Assembly: GCA_024244705.1 (NCBI GenBank)
Contig: JAAEOK010000032.1
Coordinates: 1-64,000 of the forward strand
Origin: Alphaproteobacteria bacterium
GTDB lineage: Bacteria; Pseudomonadota; Alphaproteobacteria; JAAEOK01
Reading direction: 5' to 3'
DNA length: 64,000 bases
The notes under the pieces were generated by a model. It was not told the origin of the DNA. It worked only from the letters and a program-made list of their open reading frames with translations, and did not search any database. A program made the translations under genes and the position numbers. Within the stretch, counting starts at the first letter, position 1, and each line of letters opens with the position of its first letter. Below, in pieces: positions 53,288-60,832 of the stretch.

Positions 53288-53797
53288 TTATGCGGTCTTG
53301 ATTTCGATTTGCTTGGATTTCTCCTGACGGGCCTCCGTCTTGGGCAGCGAAATCGTCAGCACGCCGTTCTTGAATATCGCCTTGACTTTGTCGTCATCGA
53401 TGCCGTCGCCGACCGGGATGACCCGACGGAAGGCGCCATAGGACCGTTCGATAAGGTGATAGCGTTTGGCCTCATTCTTGTCCTCGGTCTCATTCTTGCG
53501 CTCGCCCTCGATCGTCAAAACGCCATCATGCAAGGTGACGTTGACGTCCTTCTCCTCGAGCCCCGGCAACTCGGCGGTGATTTCGACTTGCTTGTCGTCT
53601 TCGCTGATGTCGATTTTGGTCGCGGTTATATTCAAGCCGCTGCGGCCACTATCGGTCGGCAATCTGGCCGTCCCCCAGAATTCGTCGAAGACACGGTCCA
53701 TTTCGCGCCTAAAGGCAGCAAAGGGATCGCCTGAGTCGCGGCGGGCAAGGTTGCCTGTTGGGGTATGTTGGGGAGTGGGAATCAAATTTCGAAACAT
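53288..53797 (-). CDS. Small heat shock protein, Hsp20/alpha-crystallin family
   Basis: A 169-aa small heat shock protein that holds unfolding proteins. The alpha-crystallin domain (about 60–155) has KQVEITAELPGLEEKDVNVTL-type strands, GVLTIEGERK, and the signature FKNGVLTISLPKT, followed by a short tail. ATG 53797 is chosen because GGAGG lies 8 bp before it; ATG 53803 is only 2 bp from that site. It stands behind a heat-shock-type promoter and a structured leader. Confidence 0.92.
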   Translation of the reverse strand: MFRNLIPTPQHTPTGNLARRDSGDPFAAFRREMDRVFDEFWGTARLPTDSGRSGLNITATKIDISEDDKQVEITAELPGLEEKDVNVTLHDGVLTIEGERKNETEDKNEAKRYHLIERSYGAFRRVIPVGDGIDDDKVKAIFKNGVLTISLPKTEARQEKSKQIEIKTA

Positions 53798-53808
53798 CTC
53801 CATATCCT

Positions 53809-53864
53809 CCTTCAAAGCGACATGGTGTGAGGGTGATTCGAAGGCCGAAGAGCCTTTCATCACC
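53809..53864 (-). promoter_or_regulatory. Structured hsp20 leader, candidate RNA thermometer
   Basis: Two exclusive folds are seen in the minus-strand mRNA. One pairs 53837–53844 (CCTTCGAA) with 53809–53816 (TTTGAAGG, one G·U), hiding part of the AAGGAGG ribosome site. The other is a hairpin with outer stem GGTGAT/ATCACC (53859–53864 with 53832–53837) and inner stem AAGGC/GCCTT, which uses the same bases. This layout resembles ROSE-type leaders of small heat shock genes but is not an established match. Confidence 0.5.
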
Positions 53865-53906
53865 ACGGTCAAAACCCTACCATAGGCGCTTCAACCATCT
53901 GTTTCG

Positions 53907-53936
53907 TATATGGTTTCTCTCGCTTCCCGTTCAAGG
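53907..53936 (-). promoter_or_regulatory. Heat-shock (RpoH/sigma32-type) promoter of hsp20
   Basis: On the minus strand CCTTGAA (53930–53936) is followed after 16 bp by CCATATA (53907–53913). Both match alphaproteobacterial sigma32 promoters. The expected start near 53899 gives a leader of about 100 nt before the hsp20 ATG at 53797. Confidence 0.75.
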
Positions 53937-58771: not shown

Positions 58772-60832
58772 ATGCCATTGGATATCGTTCATTCCGCCTG
58801 TCCCCATGATTGCCCGAGCACCTGTGCGCTCGAGGTCGAACGCCTCGATACCCAGCGAATTGGCAAGGTCAGCGGCGCGGCGGATAACACCTACACGTCG
58901 GGAGTCATTTGCGCGAAAGTCAGCCGCTACGCCGAGCGAGTCCATCACCCGGACCGGCTCGACCGGCCGCTCCGTCGGGTAGGTGAAAAGGGTATTGGAC
59001 GCGACGCTTTCGAGGCCATCGAATGGGATGATGCGCTCGATATCGTCGCCGATGCTCTGGCACAGGCGGGCCAGCGCCACGGCTTGGAAGCGGTGTGGCC
59101 TTATTTTTACGCCGGCACCATGGGGCTGGTCCAACGCGATGGCATCGAGCGCTTCCGCCATGCACTGAAATATTCGCGACAGTACAGCACGATTTGCAGC
59201 ACGCTCGCCGATGCCGGATGGATTGCTGGAACCGGCATCAAGCGGGGAACCGATAGTCGCGAGATCGGGGAGTCGGACCTGATCGTGATATGGGGCGGCA
59301 ACCCCGTGTCGACCCAAGTCAACGTCATGACCCATATCTCGAAGGCACGGAAAGAACGCGGCGCGCGATTGGTTGTGGTCGATCCGTATCGCACCGGCAC
59401 CGCCGCGGTTGCCGATCTCCATTTGCCGTTGCGACCCGGCACCGATGCCGCGCTGGCCTGCGCGGTCATGCATGTCGCATTCGCGGAAGGATATGCCGAT
59501 CGCGACTACATGGCCGAGTACACCGATGCGCCGGACGAGTTGGAGCGCCATGTCGCGACGCGGTCGCCTGAATGGGCCGCCGACATTACCGGCCTGGATC
59601 CAGAGACCATCAGAGAATTCGCGCACCTCTACGGGCGCACGAAACGCAGTTTCATTCGGATCGGCTATGGTTTTTCGCGAAGCCGCAACGGCGCCGCCAA
59701 TGTTTTTGCCGTGACTTGCTTGCCGGCGGTGACCGGCGCGTGGCAACAACGCGGCGGCGGGGCGCTCTATAGCAATGGCGGCCTGTATGCGCTGGACGAT
59801 ACTCTGATCCAAGGCCTCGATGTACGGGACAAATCGATTCGCTCACTAGATCAATCCCGCATAGGGCCGATTTTAACCGGCGATTCCACAGACATCGGCG
59901 ACGGTCCGCCGGTCACCGCGTTGTTCATCCAGAATACCAACCCGCTTGTCGTGTGTCCGGATACCACGAAAGTGCGGCAGGGGTTCCTTCGTGACGACTT
60001 GTTTGTCTGCGTTCACGAGCAATTCATGACCGAGACGGCGGCGATGGCCGATATCGTGCTGCCGGCGACGACGTTCCTCGAGCACGACGATATGTACGTC
60101 GCCAGTGGGCATAGCCACTTGCAGGTAACGCGTAAAGTCATCGAGCCACTGGGCGAATGCCGCTCCAACCATCGAGTCATTTGCGCGCTGGCGAAGCGTC
60201 TCGGCGCCGACCATCGCGGATTTGACATGACGGAGTGGGAGATCATCGATTGGACGCTCAAGGCGTCGGGAAAACCCGGCGCCGACGTCGCTCATTCACA
60301 GCATTGGATTGATTGTGCACCCCCCTTCGAGACGGCGCATTTTCTCGATGGGTTCGCCTGGGAAGATCGCCGCTTTCATTTCAAGCCGGATTGGTCACGG
60401 GTGGGTAAGGCTCACGAGGCCATGCCGGCACTGCCCGATCATCTCGGAAATTATGATGCGGCGGACGAGGCGCATCCGTTTCGGCTTGTCGCCGCTCCAG
60501 CGCGCCAGTTCCTGAACTCCAGCTTTACCGAGACGCCGACCGCTCGCAAACGCGAGGGTCGGCCGACAGCGTTGATACACCCCGCCGATTGTACCGAATT
60601 GGGGCTGGTCAACGGTGATCGTGTACGCCTAGGCAACCGGCTGGGTTCGGTGGTTGTCCATGCCAAGCTTTTTGATGGCCTGCAGCGCGGTGTCGTTGTG
60701 GTCGAGAGCATTTGGCCCAATGCGGATTTCGAAGAGGGTGCCGGCATCAACACATTGGTGAGCGCGGATGCTGGCCCGCCGAGAGGCGGCGCGGTTTTCC
60801 ACGACACCGCGATTTGGATGCGCCCGGCCTAG
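58772..60832 (+). CDS. Molybdopterin-dependent oxidoreductase (DMSO reductase superfamily)
   Basis: A 686-aa Mo-bis-MGD enzyme. A [4Fe-4S] site is formed by Cys10, Cys14, Cys18 and Cys47 (SACPHDCPSTC, then GVICAK). Cys142 in YSTICSTLADAG is a candidate Mo ligand. LIVIWGGNPVSTQVNVM and a C-terminal molydopterin-dinucleotide-binding domain (NGDRVRLGNRLGSVVVHAK) follow. No twin-arginine signal is seen, so it is probably cytosolic. No FeS or membrane subunit is adjacent; the substrate is unknown. Confidence 0.88.
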   Translation: MPLDIVHSACPHDCPSTCALEVERLDTQRIGKVSGAADNTYTSGVICAKVSRYAERVHHPDRLDRPLRRVGEKGIGRDAFEAIEWDDALDIVADALAQAGQRHGLEAVWPYFYAGTMGLVQRDGIERFRHALKYSRQYSTICSTLADAGWIAGTGIKRGTDSREIGESDLIVIWGGNPVSTQVNVMTHISKARKERGARLVVVDPYRTGTAAVADLHLPLRPGTDAALACAVMHVAFAEGYADRDYMAEYTDAPDELERHVATRSPEWAADITGLDPETIREFAHLYGRTKRSFIRIGYGFSRSRNGAANVFAVTCLPAVTGAWQQRGGGALYSNGGLYALDDTLIQGLDVRDKSIRSLDQSRIGPILTGDSTDIGDGPPVTALFIQNTNPLVVCPDTTKVRQGFLRDDLFVCVHEQFMTETAAMADIVLPATTFLEHDDMYVASGHSHLQVTRKVIEPLGECRSNHRVICALAKRLGADHRGFDMTEWEIIDWTLKASGKPGADVAHSQHWIDCAPPFETAHFLDGFAWEDRRFHFKPDWSRVGKAHEAMPALPDHLGNYDAADEAHPFRLVAAPARQFLNSSFTETPTARKREGRPTALIHPADCTELGLVNGDRVRLGNRLGSVVVHAKLFDGLQRGVVVVESIWPNADFEEGAGINTLVSADAGPPRGGAVFHDTAIWMRPA

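Follow-up and report, generated by a model that had tools for sequence, protein, structure and literature searches.

The window examined here, a stretch of 64,000 nucleotides from an alphaproteobacterial genome of 4.5 Mb, carries on its minus strand a gene for a small heat-shock protein of the Hsp20/alpha-crystallin type (hsp20; Pfam HSP20, E=1.8e-24), directly preceded by a leader with the features of a ROSE-type RNA thermometer and by a heat-shock promoter (Table 1). The ATG at 53797 was taken as the start of this gene because an in-frame alternative at 53803 lies very near the Shine-Dalgarno (SD) sequence and because some relatives (L102 and L113) begin with MFRSLIP-type sequences. The upstream ATG (MEMFRN...), placed within the hairpin that covers the SD, could mislead automatic start calling.

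Table 1. Features of the hsp20 locus and its control region in the window.
Feature	Position	Strand	Basis
-35 element CTTGAA of a sigma32 (RpoH)-type promoter	53930..53935	minus	sequence; genome pattern count
-10 element CCATATA	53907..53913	minus	sequence; genome pattern count
Hairpin I, with bulged G (..GC-G-CC.. / GG-G..)	53865..53898	minus	fold, -14.4 kcal/mol at 37 C
Hairpin II (GGTGAT..ATCACC, AAGGC..GCCTT), contains CCTTCGAA	53832..53864	minus	fold, -14.5 kcal/mol at 37 C
Hairpin II arms GGTGAT / ATCACC	53864-53859 / 53837-53832	minus	
Hairpin II arms AAGGC / GCCTT	53856-53852 / 53845-53841	minus	
CCTTCGAA, segment within hairpin II	53844-53837	minus	
TTTGAAGG, partner proposed by an earlier note at the ribosome site	53816-53809	minus	
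ROSE core hairpin CCAUGUCGCUUUGAAGGAGGAUAUGG, covers the SD	53800..53825	minus	fold; Rfam ROSE alignment; covariation
Anti-SD motif U(U/C)GCU, here UCGCU	53816..53820	minus	sequence; motif defined for ROSE in PMC3669281
SD sequence AAGGAGGA	53805..53812	minus	sequence
hsp20, class B small heat-shock protein (MFRNLIP...), start ATG 53797-53795	53288..53797	minus	Pfam HSP20 E=1.8e-24; class B by tree

Promoter and protein class

An earlier note on this DNA, all of whose quoted strings were found on the minus strand, had described a sigma32-type promoter followed by a leader of about 100 nt. The promoter is confirmed: CCTTGAA (53936-53930) is followed, after a 16-nt spacer, by CCATATA, and the genome holds just two exact copies of the pattern CTTGAA-N16-CCATAT, each ahead of an hsp20 gene (that of the window and one on contig C98). 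With one mismatch allowed, 11 matches on both strands were obtained compared with 1 for the reversed pattern. This is far above chance expectation and the promoter is genuine. The length of the leader agrees as well (about 104 nt), on the assumption that transcription starts at about 53901.

In a tree of 57 Hsp20 proteins two groups, class A (15 proteins) and class B (41), are separated with full support; the window protein falls in class B and the protein encoded on C98 in class A. These names are those of the rhizobial scheme (PMC3989490, PMC11784457), and, in a tree built without rhizobial reference, the two groups would correspond to the rhizobial classes on the basis of IbpA-like starts and longer N-terminal parts. 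A protein scan of genome contigs returned six distant loci, the sole alphaproteobacterial one being in Defluviicoccus (45%), where neither the Rfam ROSE model nor our own model R1 (see below) found a match.

Fold of the leader and cover of the ribosome site

The minimum-energy fold of the leader at 20-50 C comprises hairpin I (53898-53865), hairpin II (53864-53832) and a core hairpin (53825-53800), all separate, and its energy lies well below that of dinucleotide shuffles (z = -3.3). Hairpin I, with its bulged G, matches the first hairpin of ROSE elements and its consensus covaries (28 leaders), and hairpin II is the GGTGAT/ATCACC structure that the earlier note had recognised. Both are predicted to be stable, and their role is probably that of a scaffold. 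The ribosome site is masked in the fold by CCATGTC.CTTT paired with GGAGGATATGG, a pairing which that note overlooked; within it UCGCU pairs over AAGGAGGA, leaving the G at 53818 unpaired.

The mechanism that had been suggested for this leader is a different one: CCTTCGAA would alternate between pairing inside hairpin II and covering the ribosome site through TTTGAAGG, temperature or folding kinetics deciding between the two. Complementarity between these segments does exist, but it is no better than chance and it is energetically unfavourable: a helix of at least 8 pairs joining the upstream leader to the region of the ribosome site arose in 470 of the 1000 dinucleotide shuffles made, and the CCTTCGAA:TTTGAAGG pairing, when forced, raises the folding energy by 13.0 kcal/mol at 37 C, where the pair probability is <1e-9, and by 11.8 kcal/mol at 42 C, the probability staying <1e-8 throughout. 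The two-state model is therefore unsupported and the switch was rejected as barely credible. In the predicted fold hairpin II occurs together with the hairpin over the SD, and the two draw on different bases. What stands of the earlier proposal is the heat-shock promoter and the ROSE-like character of the leader, without CCTTCGAA as a switching segment.

Likeness to ROSE elements and compensatory change

A search of 601 bases around the leader against Rfam gave two matches, both sub-threshold, one to ROSE and one, upstream of it, to a microRNA family; the latter was taken as chance. The ROSE match (RF00435) spans the full length of the model (1-94) at 53893-53791 and scores 18 bits against a gathering cut-off of 45. 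Genome-wide, ROSE was matched at E<=10 just twice, in the window (E 6.2) and, at 24.3 bits, on contig C36; both matches adjoin hsp20 genes, the one on C36 being of class A. A covariance model (R1), constructed from 43 leaders with the window excluded and the C36 paralog (L001) included, gave the window leader a score of 27.7 bits (with rough E-values of 0.016 over the genome and 2.3e-4 over the window) and ranked it second in the genome after that paralog (72 bits). The runner-up of R1 within the window (59464-59648, minus strand, 15.7 bits, E 0.1) is probably a chance match. A genome-wide DNA pattern for the core was uninformative (19 matches versus 21 for the reversed control, the window not being among the matches listed).

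The strictness of the curated model can be judged from the 385 genomes of the class, in only 3 of which the 45-bit cut-off was passed, with matches at E<=0.5 in 79. R1 gave matches at E<=0.02 in 155 of the same genomes, and when 20 matches found by R1 only were chosen across scores down to 34.8 bits, 19 of them lay directly before a class A hsp20. The Rfam cut-off consequently recognises very few of the ROSE-type leaders of the class (3/385 versus 155/385 with the broader model).

Compensatory change was examined in 72 ROSE matches (71 of the 87 listed in the 385 genomes and the window's own), of which 67 are followed directly by an hsp20 gene by an automatic test and one more (L029) on recheck. 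Three loci with good ROSE cores (L246, L039, and L048) are followed by no recognisable Hsp20 frame, possibly because the genes are frameshifted, truncated or different. Alignment A1 holds 67 of the 72 matches, after removal of L040, L051, L084, and L090 (no motif by regular expression) and of L061 (a duplicate), whereas alignments A2 and A3 hold 28 and 43 leaders picked by hand from the same matches. Of the core-helix cells in A1, 94.1% are paired, compared with at most 60.9% in slid controls, and 42 carry changes on both sides, where shuffles average 13.2. Because the rows of A1 came from a structure-based search and had been selected for the motif, which is invariant there by construction, the test was repeated on leaders chosen by protein similarity alone (29 class A loci, the best-scoring of a longer match list, without L252, which is the paralog; of these 29, L271 was dropped for a misassigned start). 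U(U/C)GCU is present upstream of the start codon in each of the 28 class A leaders whose start could be used. With the window added, pairing extends to 92.8% of core cells, a level that no slid control approaches beyond 61.5%, and both sides have changed in 24 cells, compared with 9.3 on average after shuffling. Counting instead the pairs that differ on both sides gave no clear excess, as 69 and 121 of 500 shuffles reached as high a value in the two tests. Covariation in homologous leaders, the check that the earlier note had named, thus supports the SD-covering core hairpin, and it weighs against the pairing proposed by the same note, which would unfold that hairpin.

The window leader has the marks by which ROSE elements are defined in PMC3669281, namely U(U/C)GCU paired over the SD in the 3'-proximal hairpin and a 5'UTR location ahead of a small heat-shock gene. 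With three hairpins it lies within the range of two to four given in PMC4166951, and its core helix shows compensatory change, the relatives being class A leaders and not class B. It is therefore ROSE-type by the published definition, and is not a member of RF00435 by the Rfam cut-off.

Among characterized systems it most recalls the ROSE elements of rhizobial class A genes (RF00435; Bradyrhizobium hspA ROSE1) in position, length and alignment over the full model; the earlier note had already pointed to position and length, and the likeness is now borne out by the Rfam alignment, the fold, R1 and the covariation. Both have U(U/C)GCU against the SD, a bulged G, a hairpin I with a bulged G and a heat-shock gene downstream; the window leader differs in its low Rfam score, in an atypical hairpin II and in preceding a class B gene. 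In Mesorhizobium loti, according to PMC3989490, ROSE precedes all class A genes. The short ROSE-like thermometers of Pseudomonas ibpA likewise combine a sigma32 promoter with a 3' hairpin in which U(U/C)GCU covers the SD; however, they are described with two hairpins (PMC3669281), whereas three are predicted here, and they control another class of small heat-shock protein. FourU thermometers, in which four uridines pair with the ribosome binding site (PMC4166951), share a uridine-rich anti-SD strand in a leader hairpin; the window leader lacks four consecutive U opposite the SD, and its U(C)GCU with a bulged G is the ROSE pattern.

Probable two-layer heat control of a class B gene

The promoter sequence, the fold, the family-wide covariation and the position directly ahead of hsp20 are observed features of the locus, and melting in the heat range and translational control may be attributed to the leader by analogy with studied ROSE elements. 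We consider it likely, with a probability of roughly 0.84, that 53935-53798 is a two-layer heat-shock control region consisting of an RpoH promoter and a divergent ROSE-type RNA thermometer leader. The promoter would give rise to the leader of about 104 nt, in which the 3' hairpin, pairing CCAUGUC-[G]-CUUU with GGAGGAUAUGG, would keep the SD covered below heat-shock temperature; its imperfect pairs (the bulged G, a G-U and two U-G) would melt on warming, and ribosomes could then start at the ATG at 53797. Such a leader would act as ROSE elements do, by melting, the 3' hairpin opening with heat, and not by a switch between competing pairings. A vague observation on a leader is thereby turned into a specific and testable thermometer candidate.

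Several points count against this reading. The score is far under the Rfam cut-off and its genome-wide E-value is high. With a predicted energy of -9.9 kcal/mol the core is more stable than the 10th percentile of 68 leaders (-9.6), and may therefore melt at high temperature or repress tightly; ViennaRNA, with a nearest-neighbour model applied to the window leader alone, predicts that most SD bases open little at temperatures up to 50 C. This stability and limited opening are what would be expected if the hairpin reduced translation at all temperatures and heat control were exerted by RpoH alone. We regard constant repression as improbable, as the bulged G and the wobble pairs are retained and the structure matches that of ROSE, five Pseudomonas examples of which conferred thermal control in a reporter (PMC3669281).

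The gene downstream sets the thermometer candidate apart, for among 68 ROSE matches with an identified hsp20 the window alone has a protein nearest to class B, all the others preceding class A genes. Examination of 101 other class B loci (41 + 60, from a longer match list) found ROSE directly upstream of none, so no close relatives support this copy; one of them (L106) matched the regular expression, without an R1 match. In six of the 101 (L010, L115, L136, L145, L157, and L177) the order ROSE, class A, class B occurs on one strand. The six genomes belong to six different families.

The absence of the element ahead of the other class B genes, together with the low Rfam and R1 scores, would also fit a ROSE that formerly preceded a class A gene, now precedes one of class B and is losing its function. 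Decay of this kind would usually break the pairing first, yet the core hairpin, the motif, the SD and the spacing to the ATG are all intact and the folding energy keeps its distance from the shuffles; we hold it to be very improbable. The thermometer reading remains preferred, and for its origin the arrangement suggests that a ROSE-class A-class B operon lost its class A gene. That a working ROSE passed from a class A to a class B gene, most simply by such a loss, is a tentative proposal to which we give less than even odds. The 57-protein tree puts the window hsp20 in class B without a closer position inside it. If the proposal is true, all three hsp20 genes of this genome would stand under ROSE-type leaders of very different divergence, and ROSE would be a portable module, not bound to the class A lineage. 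The window would in any case offer one example of a candidate thermometer directly ahead of a class B gene, which bears on the movement of RNA elements between genes. A literature search found no ROSE on class B genes; older ROSE papers lay outside its scope and priority is not claimed.

The third hsp20 of the genome (L095, contig C98, ATG near 1899, minus strand) is the one with the other exact CTTGAA-N16-CCATAT promoter. Its leader has a short ROSE-like hairpin, ACUCGCUC..GAGAGGAGU, over the SD (R1 13.3 bits, E 0.83) and may be a further diverged thermometer.
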